A stretch of DNA of 24,198 nt from a virus, in IMG/VR virus record IMGVR_UViG_3300009447_000373, positions 1 to 24,198 of that record. One strand, 5' to 3'. Shown one piece after another: positions 1 to 5,997 of this stretch; position 1 is the first letter of the stretch; every line of letters starts with the position of its first letter. The position numbers were made by a program, and so were the translations under genes. Under the pieces are notes generated by a model, which worked only from the letters and a program-made list of their open reading frames with translations, made no database searches and was not told the DNA's origin.

Positions 1-382
1 CATTACCTAGTTCGGCATTTACATAATTAGAATTGCCATTTTGTTCAATATCAATAACACAATTATTACCATGGCAATCTAATCTTGCTGAGTTGTTATC
101 GCCTGTTTGCGAGACATTGTTTATTCCATTACCAGAACTCATCCATACACGCACTTGATTAGTGTCACCTGTTTGTGTATATGTAGTGCTTGTGTTATTA
201 CCACTTACTTGAGCTTTACTTGAATTTCCACCCAAACCAGTTATCTTGTTGTTAGCACCATCTTGAATAATAGTCATGTCTGTATTATCACCAACTTGCC
301 TCACATAAACCTCATTTGCCCAACAGTTACTGCTGGATAATGTTGATGCTATTATTAGTGCTTTCGCCCAACTTATATCCAT
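1..382 (-). CDS. Curlin-repeat protein, second copy (partial, runs off the left edge)
   Basis: An open frame starts with ATG at 382 and runs without a stop to base 1, giving at least 127 residues; the C-terminus lies outside the window. The first ~24 residues form a signal peptide (K6, hydrophobic ALIIASTL, ending near CWA-NE). The mature part has curlin-type repeats in which a Gln-x-Gly-Asp/Asn-x-Asn core recurs: QVGDN, QDGANN, QTGDTNQV, QTGDNN, QNGNSN. This matches the Q-x-G-x-x-N spacing of CsgA/CsgB amyloid repeats, which stack into a beta-solenoid. Two Cys (DCHGNNC) are unusual for a curlin. A GGGAG lies just upstream of the ATG. The start is inside the preceding FecR gene (56-base overlap in another frame), suggesting coupled translation. 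The amyloid role is inferred from repeat pattern and neighbours; whether it is a major or minor subunit cannot be told. Confidence 0.8.
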   Translation of the reverse strand, partial: MDISWAKALIIASTLSSSNCWANEVYVRQVGDNTDMTIIQDGANNKITGLGGNSSKAQVSGNNTSTTYTQTGDTNQVRVWMSSGNGINNVSQTGDNNSARLDCHGNNCVIDIEQNGNSNYVNAELGN

Positions 383-1451
383 AAATCTCCCAGTCCCCCT
401 GTTTGAGGTCTATAGTATAACCATAACCCTGATTTAATCTTAACTGCACAAAGTTTCCTTCATTATCATCTCTCCGCGAGAATACCCAATTAGGAGTTTC
501 GTTTAGTAGACCTATTCCTGTTAGTGGATCATAACCATATATATTTGCTTCTCTTTTTAGTAATAATGCATTTTGCATTGCTAGTTCATCTTGAAAGAAA
601 GCCATGAGTGCAGTATTAAGTTGATCTAGCATATCATATAATAAATCTTGTAATAGATTATCTGTTTCACTTAATGTTGTAATCCATATGCCTTCGATAG
701 AGTCAACTAGTGCATCATAATCAAGACCTTCATATTGTAAAAAATCTAATCCAAGAAAATCTGCGTCTGCTTGTTTTCTTTTTATTATCTGAGCTTCTTC
801 TACATAATAAGGATTCTTTTTGCGTAGTATCAATAATGAGTTTATCATTGATTCATCTAAGTCTAATAGTAAAGGTTTTGTGGGAGGAGACATTGAATTT
901 GAAGCAATGGTTGCTTGGAAGGCTTGATTGAGAATTACAAAACCAGCGTCTGTCTCTACTCTTATCTCTCCTGTATAACACATACCAGATGTATCACAAC
1001 TTGGTAATAGAGTTATCATACTTCCGCCAGCTTCGTCTATAACCATAACAAAGTCTGTACCACGTACACCAATAGTTGCAGATGGTGTTCTTATTCTAAC
1101 TCGTTGTCTACTATTCTTTGCTATCTGACCAGATGCATATCTTACAGTACCAAGACTAGCTTTAAGCCCTAATGAACCTGTACCAGTGTTTGGATCATAC
1201 ACAAAGTCATCTATAACTAACCGTGAATGTTTAGTTATATCAACCCGTGTATCGTCAATGAAATCAATACGCATAGAACTGTTGGTAGTGATAGCAGTAT
1301 CCAGCATTTCAATACCGACGCCGTTATCAACAGGAATTGAATCATTGTTTCTTTCAATTGCAGCATCACCCGAACCCTTAAATTGTGTAACCTCTCCGAT
1401 ATTAGCATATGTCGGAGAGGCTATAAATAATAATAATAAAAGCCTAATCAT
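327..1451 (-). CDS. Exported FecR-domain protein
   Basis: 374 residues. Residues 1-16 are a short signal peptide ending at TYA. Residues ~45-150 match a FecR domain: a beta-rich stretch with DDTRVDITKHSRLVIDDF, then GSLGLKASLGTVRY and the characteristic RTPSATIGVRGTDF (121-134). FecR domains usually sit in the periplasm or at the surface; classical FecR couples an outer-membrane transporter to a sigma factor, but no FecI-type sigma factor is here. The ~220-residue C-terminal half is unassigned, rich in Leu, Asp and Asn, and perhaps partly helical. Its ATG overlaps the stop of the upstream curlin gene (TAATG), and its 3' end overlaps the second curlin gene, so it is embedded between two curlin-like genes. 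A structural or assembly role in the curli block is more likely than signalling, but this is inference. Confidence 0.8.
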   Translation of the reverse strand: MIRLLLLLFIASPTYANIGEVTQFKGSGDAAIERNNDSIPVDNGVGIEMLDTAITTNSSMRIDFIDDTRVDITKHSRLVIDDFVYDPNTGTGSLGLKASLGTVRYASGQIAKNSRQRVRIRTPSATIGVRGTDFVMVIDEAGGSMITLLPSCDTSGMCYTGEIRVETDAGFVILNQAFQATIASNSMSPPTKPLLLDLDESMINSLLILRKKNPYYVEEAQIIKRKQADADFLGLDFLQYEGLDYDALVDSIEGIWITTLSETDNLLQDLLYDMLDQLNTALMAFFQDELAMQNALLLKREANIYGYDPLTGIGLLNETPNWVFSRRDDNEGNFVQLRLNQGYGYTIDLKQGDWEIYGYKLGESTNNSINIIQQ

Positions 1452-2185
1452 TAGTCGGACTGTGTAATATTAATATTTTGATTATCACCACTTGTGGTTA
1501 AGTCTATTGTATTATCATATATGCCGCTTTGATCAAACTTAACTGTATGGCCTCTACCTGTAGCATCAAAGTTAATTGTATGGCCGTTAAGATCACCATT
1601 GCCGGTAACATCAATATCCAATGTACTATCAATTGTTTCTAAGCTAGTGCTTCCATCAATAACAACTGTGATATCAGCACTCGTACCATTTACATCTGTA
1701 GTGATAATATTATCATCATCAGTAATAGTAAAGTTAATGGTAGCAGAACCAGCATCTGTTGTTTCACCAATATTGATTGTGTAATCTTGATTATCACCAG
1801 TTGCTGCAATGTTTAAAGTCACGTTACCACAGTTAGCTGCAGCAGTGCTAGAACATAGTAAATCAACTTCATTATTATCACCAGTGAATGTCCAAGTACC
1901 TGTGTAAGTGCTACCTAATATTTGAGCAGTGATTTTGTTCTGATTACCAGTTTGAGTTATGCTGAACGTCATATTGTCAGATGCATTACCCGCAGAACCT
2001 AATATCGCATCTTGATTACCCATGCCAGGAGATGTACCAATACTATTGTTTTGGCCATCTTGCACAATATCTAAGTCAAGTGTATCACCAACTTGCTGAA
2101 TATATATGTCGTTTGCGTTCATCACTGTTACTGGTACTACCATAAGAGCAGTACCTATAATGATAGTCTTTGTAAGATTTCTCAT
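1451..2185 (-). CDS. Curlin-repeat (CsgA/CsgB-like) secreted amyloid candidate
   Basis: 244 residues. Residues 1-24 form a signal peptide (TKTIIIGTALMVVPVTVMNA-ND). The mature protein is Asn/Asp/Gly/Thr rich, nearly Lys/Arg-free and organised as roughly eight to ten degenerate strand-turn repeats with curlin spacing: IQQVGDT, IVQDGQNN, ITQTGNQN, FTGDNNE, AATGDNQD, VTGNGD, FDQSGIYDN, TSGDNQNINITQ. Glutamines and asparagines recur at curlin core positions, while many repeats have lost the Q, so it is diverged from enteric CsgA. Two Cys lie near residues 111-119. An AAGGA lies 8 bases before ATG 2185, and the gene begins 11 bases after the csgG stop. Placed directly after csgF-csgG, the natural inference is that it is cargo of the CsgG pore. 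Amyloid formation is not shown by sequence alone. Confidence 0.82.
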   Translation of the reverse strand: MRNLTKTIIIGTALMVVPVTVMNANDIYIQQVGDTLDLDIVQDGQNNSIGTSPGMGNQDAILGSAGNASDNMTFSITQTGNQNKITAQILGSTYTGTWTFTGDNNEVDLLCSSTAAANCGNVTLNIAATGDNQDYTINIGETTDAGSATINFTITDDDNIITTDVNGTSADITVVIDGSTSLETIDSTLDIDVTGNGDLNGHTINFDATGRGHTVKFDQSGIYDNTIDLTTSGDNQNINITQSD

Positions 2186-2196
2186 GTGTCTTTCCT

Positions 2197-3003
2197 TTAT
2201 CCGCCGTTCTTAGGATCCTCTAAGAATGTCCAGAATTGTTTTGATTCTCCTTCATTAATCAATTCAATAACGCCAGCTTCAATTGCTGATCTAACTGCAT
2301 AATTAACTGGCTCATTCACGCTGTAGCCAGTTTCTGCTTCTATAAGTTTAGTGCCCATATCTAAAAATCTAAATACATCAGCACCGCTTCTATGACTTGC
2401 TATGGTCTTTTCTGTGGCAACACTTAGTAATACTTTACCTGTACTGACACTTACTAACCGCATAACAACAGTCACTGTATCGACTCTATAATCCATCTGA
2501 GCACCAATGCCCAAATACCTAGCTCCAGTTCCGCCTGTTGCAACACTTGAGTCGTATCCTACTATTCCACCTTCTAATATTAAACCTGCAAATACCATAG
2601 GCTTTAAAGGTGTAGGACCTTTAGCCAATTTCTTTTCATATATTTCTCTGGTATTTCTAACCAATTGTCTTTCTTTAACTAGATTATCTAAACCTACTCT
2701 TTCAACTACCTCAAACCATGTACCATATCCAACATCTTGTAGTGCCTTTATTACCCATACTTCGCCGCCTTGTGTAACAGCACTACTAAGATTAGAAGTG
2801 GTATCACTTGGTTTTCTCTGACCAGTCTTATCAGTAAAACCATATACAGCAATTGTCATCTTCTTACCATCCAACTGCTTATAGTTGGATATATCATTAG
2901 GCGAAACTTGAACAATAGGCTTTGCTTTCATCGGCGCAACTAAGTTAGGATCAGTACAGCCTGATAGTAATAATATAATTGCGGCAAGTAAAGAGTATTT
3001 CAT
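2197..3003 (-). CDS. csgG: CsgG-like curli secretion channel lipoprotein
   Basis: 268 residues. The N-terminus is a lipoprotein signal with lipobox LSGC (Cys16). In Escherichia coli CsgG is a nonameric outer-membrane lipoprotein whose 36-strand barrel exports curlin subunits. Family features are clear along the whole length: IAVYGFTDKTGQRKP (51-65), LKxxxVFAGLILEGGIVGYDSSVATGGTGARYLGIGA (133-168, first transmembrane hairpin), RLVSVSTGKVLLSVATEKTI (182-201), VFRFLD (210-215) and NEPVNYAVRSAIEAGVIELI (230-249). Length is close to E. coli CsgG (277). The constriction loop differs: by alignment from memory the enteric Tyr51 and Phe56 correspond to Ser66 and Leu72 here, with one extra residue. Its ATG overlaps the csgF stop (TAATG), so the two are probably translationally coupled. 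Function as a pore is well supported by homology; its substrate is inferred from neighbours. Confidence 0.93.
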   Translation of the reverse strand: MKYSLLAAIILLLSGCTDPNLVAPMKAKPIVQVSPNDISNYKQLDGKKMTIAVYGFTDKTGQRKPSDTTSNLSSAVTQGGEVWVIKALQDVGYGTWFEVVERVGLDNLVKERQLVRNTREIYEKKLAKGPTPLKPMVFAGLILEGGIVGYDSSVATGGTGARYLGIGAQMDYRVDTVTVVMRLVSVSTGKVLLSVATEKTIASHRSGADVFRFLDMGTKLIEAETGYSVNEPVNYAVRSAIEAGVIELINEGESKQFWTFLEDPKNGG

Positions 3004-3470
3004 TAGAAGTTAAATTCCCCTTCACCCGGAATGGTTATGGTAGTAGTACCATCATCATTTGCTATTGTTAATGTAATCTCACCAGATATAGGATCTTTAG
3101 TCCATTCTATAGTGCTGCCTTCAATTTCAGTAGTACCCGTTGTTGGACAAGTATTACCAGTGCAATCCGTAAACATACTATCAACCATTTGTTTACTTAG
3201 TGTTGCATAAATTCTTGATTCAAGGTTTTTAATAAACTTATTAAGTGTTGTGTTTTCTAGTTCTCTTTCTATTCTTCTTGCTTCTGACTCAGCTTTATCT
3301 TTACGATCCTGTGTTCGGTTATACTGTAACTGTTCTGTACTTAGAACATGACTAGAATACCCATTTCCACTAAATGATGGATTCTTAAATCTAAAACCTA
3401 ATTCAGCATTACTTTGTGTTGGGAGTAACACCAAAAGAATTAGGCTCAAGCTCAACTTTTTTATCTTCAT
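3003..3470 (-). CDS. csgF: CsgF-like curli pore accessory protein
   Basis: 155 residues from ATG 3470, chosen because it gives a clean signal peptide (MKIKKLSLSLILLVLLPTQS, cleavage after NA) and has AGGTG about 7 bases upstream; a start at 3521 would put a charged extension before it. The mature N-terminus ELGFRFKNPSFSGN aligns with the CsgF segment (FQFRNPNFGGN in E. coli) that plugs into the CsgG barrel and forms a second constriction. A charged helical region follows (about residues 45-85), then a C-terminal beta domain containing a CTGNTC pair and GEITLTIANDDGTTTITIPG, comparable to the C-terminal domain of CsgF. It is slightly longer than E. coli CsgF (138). It overlaps the preceding membrane-protein gene by 62 bases and the csgG start by one base. 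Confidence 0.88.
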   Translation of the reverse strand: MKIKKLSLSLILLVLLPTQSNAELGFRFKNPSFSGNGYSSHVLSTEQLQYNRTQDRKDKAESEARRIERELENTTLNKFIKNLESRIYATLSKQMVDSMFTDCTGNTCPTTGTTEIEGSTIEWTKDPISGEITLTIANDDGTTTITIPGEGEFNF

Positions 3471-3759
3471 CTTTAACACCTGTCGAATTAAATGTTTCAC
3501 TTTTACTTTGAAATTCAGCAACTTCTTTATTCATTCCTCTATGCTCTAGGACCATGGAAAGTTTACTGTTTAATCTAATCATATCATTATCAAGCATTCT
3601 GATTCTATCAACTAACTTAATTAATGTCATCATTGTCTCACCAATGACTGGATCAATTGTTTCTGTAACCCATTTCCATATAAAGAAAATAAAATAGCCC
3701 ATACCAACAGCAGACACAATAGGAAATCCGTAATCTGTTATTGCTTTGGTTATATCCAT
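3409..3759 (-). CDS. Small one-TM coiled-coil membrane protein, copy 2 (holin-like)
   Basis: 116 residues. It starts MDITKAITDYGFPI, has one hydrophobic helix (about 12-31, GFPIVSAVGMGYFIFFIWKW) and then an amphipathic, probably coiled-coil region with a polar charged tail (EDKKVELEP). It is a paralogue of the gene just upstream: both show MDI-x-x-x-I-x-D-x-GFPI at the N-terminus, a Gly-rich helix, and later a Leu-Asp/Asn rich segment. The layout (very short N-terminus, one TM, cytoplasmic helical tail) resembles BhlA/UviB-type holins, which is a resemblance of architecture only. AGGAG precedes the ATG, one base after the preceding stop. The 3' end overlaps csgF, tying it to the curli block. 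Function unknown; a holin or an inner-membrane partner of the secretion system are both possible. Confidence 0.72.
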   Translation of the reverse strand: MDITKAITDYGFPIVSAVGMGYFIFFIWKWVTETIDPVIGETMMTLIKLVDRIRMLDNDMIRLNSKLSMVLEHRGMNKEVAEFQSKSETFNSTGVKDEDKKVELEPNSFGVTPNTK

Positions 3760-3760
3760 T

Positions 3761-4039
3761 CTAATCTCTCCTTGCGTCTTCCTTACCTTCGTTGGCTGCT
3801 ATTCGATCAATGTTTGGTTTAACATTAAGAGCATAACTAAGTAAAGCATCAATTTTCACTAAATCATTATTCATTGTTTGTACCCTATTATCAAGGGATC
3901 CAATTATATTCTTTAAAGTTGTCACTGAATCAGTAACACTAGCTAAAATAAACTTTAGTGTAATAAAAACAAATACACCAGCTGCAATAGCACCACCAAT
4001 AGGAAAGCCAACATCTCCTATCAAATCTAATATATCCAT
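3761..4039 (-). CDS. Small one-TM coiled-coil membrane protein, copy 1 (holin-like)
   Basis: 92 residues. MDILDLIGDVGFPI is followed by one TM helix (about 10-32, GGAIAAGVFVFITLKFI), then a helical region with heptad-like hydrophobics (SVTTLKNIIGSLDNRVQTMN, then LVKIDALLSYAL) and a charged C-terminus (EGKEDARRD). It is the first gene behind the late-type promoter and its product is paralogous to the next gene product, so the pair looks like a tandem duplication that has since diverged. AAAGG precedes the ATG. One-TM proteins with this layout are common as phage holins, and an exported cell-wall hydrolase is encoded 1.5 kb upstream, but no family could be assigned with certainty. It may alternatively act with CsgG/CsgF. 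Confidence 0.72.
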   Translation of the reverse strand: MDILDLIGDVGFPIGGAIAAGVFVFITLKFILASVTDSVTTLKNIIGSLDNRVQTMNNDLVKIDALLSYALNVKPNIDRIAANEGKEDARRD

Positions 4040-4064
4040 ATCAAACCTTTCATATTTACTGTAC

Positions 4065-4072
4065 TATTTATA
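4065..4072 (-). promoter_or_regulatory. T4-type late promoter box for the curli block
   Basis: The minus strand reads TATAAATA, identical to the T4 late -10 box recognised through gp55 with the gp45 clamp. It lies 26 bases upstream of the first gene of the block (ATG 4039) and directly after a terminator hairpin, an arrangement that isolates the block from upstream transcription. The motif is short and AT-rich, so position rather than sequence alone gives it weight. No other minus-strand TATAAATA was noticed in the window. Confidence 0.65.
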
Positions 4073-4074
4073 AC

Positions 4075-4100
4075 AAAAGAGGAGCTAACCATGGCTCCTC
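4075..4100 (-). terminator. Rho-independent terminator after the small outer-membrane protein gene
   Basis: On the minus strand GAGGAGC (4100-4094) pairs perfectly with GCTCCTC (4085-4079) across a short loop, and TTTTGTTA follows. It lies 46 bases past the stop of the 4146-4514 gene and just before the late promoter box. Confidence 0.75.
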
Positions 4101-4145: not shown

Positions 4146-4514
4146 TTAGAAGTTGAATGTAGCGCCCATTGTCACATCACCAAATTCTAGGTCTGAGTTT
4201 GTACCAACTTCGGTGTAAGCGCGAAGCCCACCACCAATAGTATAACCAGCAGCAAAGTCAAGGCCAGTAAATGATTCTTTAGAAGCATCATTCAAAGACA
4301 TAACATCAAGTGTTGTGTCCACTGAGAAGTCCACACCAAAGGCATTAAGACCGGCTTTAGGAGTAAAATCCAATGCCCATAGTTCTGTGCCAGTTGTATA
4401 GTTCATATCAAGCTCGCCGCCAGCTGAGATGGTTTGACCACCAACATCTAGGTCTGCTGCTGATACTGTAGATGCCAACATAGTCATGGCAATTGCAATT
4501 GTAGTTATCTTCAT
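4146..4514 (-). CDS. Tiny outer-membrane beta-barrel-like protein
   Basis: 122 residues. Residues 1-19 are a signal peptide (KITTIAIAMTMLASTVSA-AD). The mature ~103 residues alternate polar and hydrophobic positions with many Gly and aromatic residues (GLDFAAGYTIGGGLRAYTEV, then FGDVTMGATFNF) and end in Phe, the classic C-terminal signal read by the BAM complex for outer-membrane insertion. At this size it could supply only about six to eight strands, much smaller than a porin, so it may be a small barrel or oligomerise. AGGA precedes ATG 4514. It sits between the phage tmRNA and its own terminator, separate from the curli block. Receptor masking, superinfection exclusion or permeability change are possible roles, all inference. 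Confidence 0.72.
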   Translation of the reverse strand: MKITTIAIAMTMLASTVSAADLDVGGQTISAGGELDMNYTTGTELWALDFTPKAGLNAFGVDFSVDTTLDVMSLNDASKESFTGLDFAAGYTIGGGLRAYTEVGTNSDLEFGDVTMGATFNF

Positions 4515-4554
4515 AGTTTTTTCCTATTCATAGAATGTTAATAATAATAAAAGT

Positions 4555-4582
4555 GCCACTTTTCTGTTGCTAGGTAAGTGGC
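4555..4582 (-). terminator. Hairpin at the 3' end of the tmRNA coding piece
   Basis: GCCACTT (4582-4576) pairs perfectly with AAGTGGC (4561-4555) over a 14-base loop and is followed by ACTTTTATTATTATT. It may be the post-tag helix of the mature RNA, the transcription end, or both. The T run is interrupted, so termination may be partial and the small outer-membrane protein gene could be read through. Confidence 0.55.
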
Positions 4583-4594
4583 CAACCCCCTGTG

Positions 4595-4639
4595 TTATGC
4601 CGCTAGGGCGTAACCAGATGGTGCGAAATTTTCATTTGC
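4595..4639 (-). other. tmRNA tag reading frame (ANENFAPSGYALAA)
   Basis: Resume codon GCA at 4639-4637, then codons for ANENFAPSGYALAA and stop TAA at 4597-4595. With the alanine carried by the tmRNA the added tag would be AANENFAPSGYALAA. It starts with the usual Ala-Asn and ends in ALAA, as in tags that direct proteins to ClpXP-type proteases. Confidence 0.92.
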
Positions 4640-4931
4640 ATTTAGTTTATTGATCTATACGCGATCATCCGGTAAACTCCACTTCACTACGACACCTGTC
4701 GATCCTAAAATATCAGCCCCATCAAAAACACACTACGGTTGCAACCTACTCCTGTTATTGATCAAATCCGCCAAGGAGTCACGGACATAATGTGTTTATG
4801 GTGGAGCTGTCGGGATTTGCACCCGAGTCCAGTATGCGTTCACGTTGCTTCAACGTTTACTAATTATATAGTATATAAAAGGCTAAAAATGCTAATCATA
4901 TATTATTTAATATTTTAGTGTCTCTTTTATG

Positions 4932-5502: not shown

Positions 5503-5964
5503 TCATTTCGCTTTGTAAAAAATGTGAGTGCCAATTTCGGCAGTCTTAATCATAAATTCTTCCTTAGCCCAGAAAGGATTTACATAGTCGGCATGGTAGT
5601 GATCTGCTCCACCAGTATTATCATTAGATTTATTAGACATAACTTCTATAGCAATAGCATATGCTAGTTTATATGCTTTTTTATCATCTGGAGTAGTATC
5701 ATCAAGTGTCCATGTCCAGCTGAATTGTTTATTAGCATATACAACATCACATATATTATCTGCATGTTTTGAACTAGCAACTCTATTCATTGTTACGTGA
5801 GCAACAGCATACTGTCCATCAATAGTTTGATTTCTTGCTTCATGATAAACATTTAAAGCAAGACACTCTTTAGCTTCTGCTCTTTCACCATTAAATATGC
5901 TAATACAAGAACCTAGACCAAGTAACATTGCTAATGTAAATGCGCCGGATAAGATATTTTTCAT
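5503..5964 (-). CDS. Exported SleB-type cell-wall hydrolase (probable endolysin)
   Basis: 153 residues from ATG 5964 (a GTG lies 6 bases further upstream). The N-terminus is a signal sequence (ILSGAFTLAMLLGLGSCISI); LGSC at 17-20 is lipobox-like, while cleavage after ERAEA is an alternative. The rest is a Hydrolase_2/SleB domain: ECLALNVYHEARNQ with the presumed catalytic Glu42, GQYAVAHVTMNRV, KQFSWT and ADHYHADYVNPFWA. The family cleaves peptidoglycan as a lytic transglycosylase or amidase. A signal sequence on a phage hydrolase implies export by the host Sec system rather than release through a large holin. It has its own promoter (5998-6026) and is followed at once by the dNMP kinase-like gene. 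Confidence 0.88.
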   Translation of the reverse strand: MKNILSGAFTLAMLLGLGSCISIFNGERAEAKECLALNVYHEARNQTIDGQYAVAHVTMNRVASSKHADNICDVVYANKQFSWTWTLDDTTPDDKKAYKLAYAIAIEVMSNKSNDNTGGADHYHADYVNPFWAKEEFMIKTAEIGTHIFYKAK

Positions 5965-5997
5965 ATTCACTACTCGTTTATTATGTCTGTTGATATT

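Follow-up and report, generated by a model that had tools for sequence, protein, structure and literature searches.

The left end of a 24,198-base virus record (IMGVR_UViG_3300009447_000373; taken as a whole, the window) from a T4-like marine phage, a virus of bacteria, carries seven successive minus-strand genes with short overlaps or gaps between them. They encode two small proteins with one transmembrane (TM) helix each (TM1 and TM2), homologues of the curli secretion proteins CsgF and CsgG, two curlin-type proteins (Cur1 and Cur2), and a FecR-domain protein (Table 1). By gene content and order these genes, joined in relatives by an adenylate cyclase with a CHASE2 domain (CHASE2-AC), form a single module, which is conserved and has late boxes where its transcription units start. 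Other phages, some of them near by DNA polymerase, join the same FecR and cyclase families, and mostly the TM pair, to a type I secretion system (T1SS) and an adhesin, without CsgG. Because the FecR domain and the cyclase, and in most cases also the TM pair, occur with two unrelated exporters, each of which would bring an adhesive structure to the surface, we favor the reading, with a probability of roughly 60%, that the module is expressed late, that it secretes a structure and anchors it on the surface of the infected cell, and that its exporter can be exchanged. The exchange suggests that coating the cell, not forming a lysis pore, is the module's job.

Gene content of the module and exchange of its exporter

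An earlier note, made from the letters of this DNA, had described seven consecutive genes behind a T4-type late box that encode two one-TM proteins, CsgF, CsgG, a FecR-domain protein, and two curlin-repeat proteins, and had taken them for a secretion block that includes both pore and cargo. This description holds: the open reading frames lie where the note had placed them, a late box stands ahead of TM1, TM1 and TM2 each have a single hydrophobic stretch, and CsgF, CsgG, the FecR domain, and Cur2 are recognized by Pfam (Table 1). Cur1 does not reach the Pfam curlin threshold and is identified by a family profile, which was seeded from Cur1 and its phage relatives and matches curlins encoded beside alphaproteobacterial csgG (E 1e-16 to 1e-18). 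The profile of the phage CsgG family matches E. coli CsgG, for which a structure is solved, at E 5.6e-69, in an alignment that takes in the N-terminal lipobox region. The window thus holds an outer-membrane lipoprotein pore of the CsgG type, CsgF, and a curlin-repeat substrate, the components by which type VIII secretion (T8SS) is recognized. No CsgE, CsgC, or CsgD was found among the block's proteins with Pfam; CsgE is not taken here as defining for T8SS, because PMC9599517 describes alphaproteobacterial and phage curli versions from which the CsgE gate is also missing. In the constriction loop of CsgG, Leu replaces the Phe of E. coli SNFS in 38 of the 38 phage loops matched, and the position of the E. 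coli Tyr is non-aromatic in most of the proteins in which the loop was matched.

A survey of gene neighborhoods found the block conserved, and not disrupted, in 82 viral loci. The nearest relatives (L004 and L005; CsgG 91% identical) have a gene order identical to that of the window, and L004 runs on past Cur2 into the CHASE2-AC gene; the order CsgF-CsgG-Cur1-FecR-Cur2-AC is fixed in viral loci long enough to show it. The genes of the block are under purifying selection, with dN/dS values mostly of 0.03-0.25.

The form with the exchanged exporter is represented by a 148-kb contig that carries TM1 (G003, IMGVR_UViG_3300030376_006203; loci L193, L194, and L163) and in whose record CsgF and CsgG occur nowhere. 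Its genes are arranged in the order FecR-cadherin adhesin (1299 aa), TolC-like protein, LssB-type permease, HlyD, one small gene, CHASE2-AC, and TM2/TM1. Two further scans recovered 15 such contigs, of which 13 are distinct; the T1SS-type set consists of G003 and 14 further contigs (L195-L202, L214-L221). CsgG is absent from all nine T1SS-type records tested, and the FecR and AC proteins of the curli-type and T1SS-type modules belong to the same PHROGs (37870 and 35576). In the T1SS-type phages the FecR domain forms the N-terminal part of the adhesin, and RTX repeats with a serralysin-type C-terminus make up the end of some adhesins.

The DNA polymerase of G003 shares 73% identity with its counterparts in the curli-type phages G004 and G008, compared with 64-66% for the other T1SS-type phages, which places both exporter types within one lineage. 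In none of 200 bootstrap trees of the polymerase does a single branch separate the T1SS phages from the rest; the branches starred in the tree force one change only, its resolution being too low to give the number of exporter swaps. The possibility that the T1SS-type contigs are not from phages was rejected, since the three longest carry a T4-type DNA polymerase. They are read instead as incomplete contigs from large T4-like phages, both for this reason and because G003 encodes tail-spike and nucleotide-metabolism proteins of phage type; Gp23, Phage_sheath_1, and Terminase_6N gave no matches in those tested.

The FecR-domain protein of the window has a signal-peptide-like start, a short N-terminal helix followed by a beta domain. 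In its AlphaFold2 model (mean pLDDT 77) a helical region of lower certainty separates this beta domain from a C-terminal beta part; in Foldseek comparison with the PDB the model matches the cell-surface signaling domain of PupR (6ovk, E 2.5e-4) and a 'cell surface anchoring domain' (5ix9; 63 columns, 1.2 A, E 0.049, probability 1.00), which we take to be the domain that anchors the Marinomonas ice-binding RTX adhesin at its N-terminus. The model of the adhesin FecR domain (pLDDT 89) has the same two PDB matches, and the FecR models from the two module types superimpose on 5ix9 at 1.2-1.3 A. The FecR protein is therefore likely a structural anchor rather than an iron regulator. A C-terminal motif, [IVL]x[IVL]xQ(0-4), is found in 36 of 37 FecR proteins, 41/41 Cur1 proteins, and 23/34 Cur2 proteins (fewer than one expected in each case) and in none of the CsgF, CsgG, TM1, and TM2 proteins. 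Being common to the three, the motif suggests that FecR, Cur1, and Cur2 may interact or share a mode of assembly.

The best-placed alternative makes the FecR protein a regulator that works with the cyclase and with the genes in the position of published 'histidine kinase' genes, instead of an exported anchor. The CHASE2 and cyclase domains are real, the FecR-domain fold is shared with the FecR/PupR cell-surface signaling regulators, and a FecR-domain gene of Sinorhizobium is a cAMP/Clr target. Unlike those regulators, the phage protein has no anti-sigma domain, FecR being the only domain that Pfam finds in it, and it begins with the short signal-like helix; the supposed kinases are proteins of 92-116 aa with no kinase domain, and the place of the FecR domain at the head of the adhesin in T1SS-type phages speaks against it too. 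A regulatory role is unlikely.

The swapped module resembles the T1SS of LapA-type RTX adhesins (PMC6890996) in having TolC, HlyD, an LssB-type permease, and a cadherin/RTX adhesin; these LapA-like parts, with an RTX C-terminus in some cases, are present in the related phages and not in the window. Where LapA-type adhesins have an N-terminal retention module, the phage adhesin has a compact N-terminal domain that resembles the 5ix9 anchoring domain. The phage form differs in that this domain is of the FecR type and the permease lacks its ATPase half. No LapD or LapG turned up in the T1SS-type phages, no search having been aimed at them. The T1SS-type module was found neither in the literature searched nor in named phages, and its TolC occurs in no named phage.

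Table 1. Features of the curli block in the window, in order of transcription after the two upstream signals
Feature	Position	Strand	Basis or remark
Terminator-like hairpin, closing the upstream unit	4079..4100	-	consensus match only
T4-type late box TATAAATA	4065..4072	-	26 bases before the TM1 ATG
TM1, 92 aa, first gene of the operon	3761..4039	-	phrog_18771, one TM helix
TM2, 116 aa, paralogue of TM1	3409..3759	-	same PHROG as TM1, one TM helix
CsgF homologue	3003..3470	-	Pfam PF10614, E 3.8e-15
CsgG homologue, lipoprotein-type pore	2197..3003	-	Pfam PF03783, E 1.9e-50
Cur1, curlin-like cargo 1, signal-peptide-like N-terminus	1451..2185	-	family profile
FecR-domain protein, predicted to be exported	327..1451	-	Pfam PF04773, E 3.9e-9
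Cur2, curlin cargo 2, 3' end lost at the contig end	2..382	-	Pfam PF07012, E 1.6e-7

Late boxes and the small membrane proteins

In the window the hairpin precedes the late box at a short distance, read along the minus strand (from 4100 to 4079). The window alone contains three late boxes against 4.7 expected, which is not above chance, and the significance of the box position therefore comes only from relatives. It was assessed in 44 phage loci, dereplicated by CsgG, with expectations from dinucleotide shuffles; the first gene of a transcription unit was taken to be TM1, or csgF where TM1 lies elsewhere. NATAAATA stands upstream of such first genes in 41/63 cases (4.2 in shuffles) and upstream of internal genes in 2/164. 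The AC gene is preceded by a late box in 12 of 33 cases, against 2.0 expected.

Phage HTVC008M served for calibration: a box lies ahead of 8 of its 28 structural genes and none of its 20 replication genes, so that the pattern of T4-type late transcription, an (N)ATAAATA box ahead of late and not early genes, is found here. The box of its csgF is at -13, a spacing equal to that of several structural genes. Across the csgF, AC, tape measure, end protector, neck, and baseplate genes of HTVC008M the box has a near-fixed place, -11 to -16 from the ATG. Transcription of the T4 late type starts about 5-7 bases after the box; many messages of the module would for this reason be leaderless.

TM1 and TM2 are proteins of 92-116 aa in one PHROG with a strongly conserved helix. 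In TM1 the TM helix is followed by a conserved helix, LDNRVQTMNNDLVKID...NEGKEDARRD, and in TM2 it is accompanied by a DRVRMLDNDMIRL-type motif. The published 'histidine kinase' genes are equated with TM1/TM2 by their position; with Pfam, no kinase domain was found at E<=1 in 18 TM1 members, nor in TM2 of the window. The two genes either open the operon or form a pair on the other strand, beyond AC.

Searching in reverse, from TM1, yielded 80 loci, 52 of which have CsgG or CsgF; 19 have the cyclase with no CsgG or CsgF in the stretch fetched, and nine have neither, all of them short contigs or contig ends. In one long locus (L153) TM1, TM2, and AC are present and an exporter is absent from the 20 kb. 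Three genes are inserted there between TM1 and TM2 (L153:10301-11541), among them one for a 278-aa protein that on visual inspection resembles an aerolysin-type beta protein, adjoining a small TM protein.

Of 50,697 named phage records, six contain TM1, and these are precisely the HTVC008M and Melnitz records with a curli module; in a sample of 385 genomes from the class to which G001 belongs, it is present only in G001, a metagenome-assembled genome (MAG) with phage contigs. Since it occurs with the module and not across phages generally, TM1 is probably a component of the module rather than a general phage holin, and the weakness of its match to a holin PHROG likewise speaks against a holin. 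The earlier description of the TM pair as holin-like accordingly found no support. Membership of TM1/TM2 in the YvrJ or a holin family was rejected, the Pfam matches being at E 0.07 or worse.

Surface display weighed against other functions

The function of phage-borne curli genes has been debated since 2020, with lysis, uptake, capture of siblings, and superinfection exclusion proposed. The exporter swap offers a way to choose among these: both forms retain the FecR domain and the cyclase, and usually the membrane pair, and what the two exporters would have in common is that they place an adhesive structure on the cell surface. We propose that the FecR domain would be kept in the periplasm and would anchor the exported structure at its outer-membrane exporter, a step that domain architecture and fold make plausible. 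The CHASE2 domain of the inner-membrane cyclase may sense the anchored state across the periplasm, and TM1/TM2 may assist in the inner membrane. The selected outcome would be a cell coated late in infection with an adhesive fiber or adhesin, and the coat could either retain debris, neighboring cells, or particles near the burst or shield the cell from other phages. For the wider claim that large marine phages carry a surface-display cassette, composed of the phage-specific TM1/TM2 pair, a periplasmic FecR anchor, and a CHASE2-AC reporter, into which a curli or a LapA-like exporter is plugged, the two being swapped within one lineage, we see the odds as slightly better than even.

Several points weigh against surface display. 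No clumping was observed in Melnitz cultures (PMC9004378). Late-class expression of the curli operon, and with it the timing in this proposal, is read from a promoter motif; the amyloid-like nature of the fiber is predicted from the genes; and the sensing by CHASE2, the role of the TM pair, and a contact among FecR, cyclase, and TM proteins are conjectural. Of the 13 distinct T1SS-type sequences, TM1/TM2-type genes could be recognized in 9. Profile-profile comparison of the FecR tail with curlins gave no significant match, and the link between them is kept as a short shared motif. Lastly, the T1SS permease is a 250-aa TM part without the ATPase half, and no ABC ATPase (ABC_tran) was found in G003 or G394; of four T1SS-type records tested, only one contains an ABC ATPase that passes the family cut-off, about 14 kb from the module. 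The swapped exporter may therefore depend on a host ATPase.

In another account, put forward for Melnitz (PMC9004378), CsgG, with CsgF, serves lysis or egress, as a pinholin, a secretin-like gate, or a substitute for spanins that times lysis. The late boxes at the unit starts fit it, as do a weak match of TM1 to a holin PHROG (E 5.7e-4) and an exported SleB-type hydrolase encoded 1.5 kb upstream in the window. It loses support because it predicts a constant pore, yet the pore is what related phages exchange for a T1SS adhesin exporter, keeping the accessory core. The cargo, the FecR protein, and the cyclase are moreover kept under purifying selection. CsgG is an outer-membrane pore and as such is not expected to depolarize the inner membrane. 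We regard a lysis pore as improbable, and with it we disfavor the earlier suggestion that the block replaces spanins as a way out of the cell: the FecR and cyclase genes, and mostly TM1/TM2, persist where CsgG, CsgF, and curlin give way to a T1SS and an RTX/cadherin adhesin.

Less probable still is uptake, in which an ungated CsgG admits nutrients or cofactors for phage replication, as proposed in PMC7029224 and PMC9599517; the lack of a CsgE gate among the block's proteins agrees with it, but CsgF, two cargos, the FecR protein, and the swap to an export-type T1SS are left unexplained. That the genes are passive hitch-hikers or a decaying bacterial island, a view to which their hypervariable location (PMC7029224) lends something, is contradicted by the low dN/dS values and by a gene order kept in dozens of divergent phages, as well as by their expression in metatranscriptomes (PMC9599517), and is very unlikely.

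Published precedent and neighboring genes

The window is a further case of the phage curli module known from PMC7029224, PMC9004378, and PMC9599517. PMC7029224 reports csgF and csgG with hypothetical neighbors in the hypervariable region of pelagimyophages; PMC9004378 discusses the Melnitz pore as a possible regulator of lysis; and PMC9599517 lists CsgF, CsgG, CsgA/B, FecR, a second CsgA/B, and adenylate cyclase in podophages and myophages, with one or two genes labeled histidine kinase ahead of them, and reports expression of the module in metatranscriptomes. The annotations of HTVC008M and Melnitz have the same gene order as the window. The gene set is consequently not new, and the combination of cargo and FecR, for which the earlier note named no precedent, had already been published.

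The module of pelagiphages and methylophages (HTVC008M, Melnitz, and HTVC023P-type podophages) has, like the window, two small genes, CsgF, CsgG, curlin, FecR, curlin, and CHASE2-AC. Three corrections to the published picture are suggested: a kinase domain is missing from the small TM genes that occupy the 'histidine kinase' position, the FecR protein seems to be an exported structural anchor and not a regulator, and expression is probably of the late class. These corrections are testable in HTVC008M and Melnitz, both cultured phages. Late boxes and the T1SS-swapped form are not described in the accessible portions of the three papers; new here are the cross-locus statistics of the late box, the tie of TM1/TM2 to the module, the anchor-like FecR model, and the T1SS-swapped form.

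With bacterial curli operons (csgBAC-csgDEFG) the phage block has CsgG, CsgF, and curlin-repeat proteins in common; it differs in the lack of CsgC, CsgD, and CsgE noted above. Profiles of phage FecR, AC, and TM1/TM2 found no match in the sampled alphaproteobacterial csg loci. A profile scan of contigs for bacterial relatives of phage CsgG gave seven loci, which are not counted as bacterial because most carry a phage-type module and the MAG G001 holds several phage copies.

The Cur2 protein of HTVC008M (L002:10429-11754) has an N-terminal PA14 domain (PF07691, E 2.7e-6), possibly a carbohydrate-binding tip of the fiber. A 1,499-base record labeled Salmonella phage S.Kent 1-2-1 (OR851715.1) contains CsgG at 42% identity and is probably a fragment of a host csg locus, not of a phage.

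Just upstream of the curli block in the window, also on the minus strand, a protein of 122 aa (4146-4514) carries a signal peptide and has an aromatic C-terminus resembling that of an outer-membrane barrel; it has no convincing match in Pfam or PHROG and occurs in 10 viral loci, close relatives of the window among them. It is followed at 4552-4914 (minus strand) by a permuted tmRNA gene of alphaproteobacterial type (Rfam RF04321, RF01849); a tmRNA gene lies near the curli genes of Melnitz as well. The SleB-type cell wall hydrolase (5503-5970, minus strand; PF07486, E 8.2e-24) has an N-terminal export signal and is a candidate endolysin.

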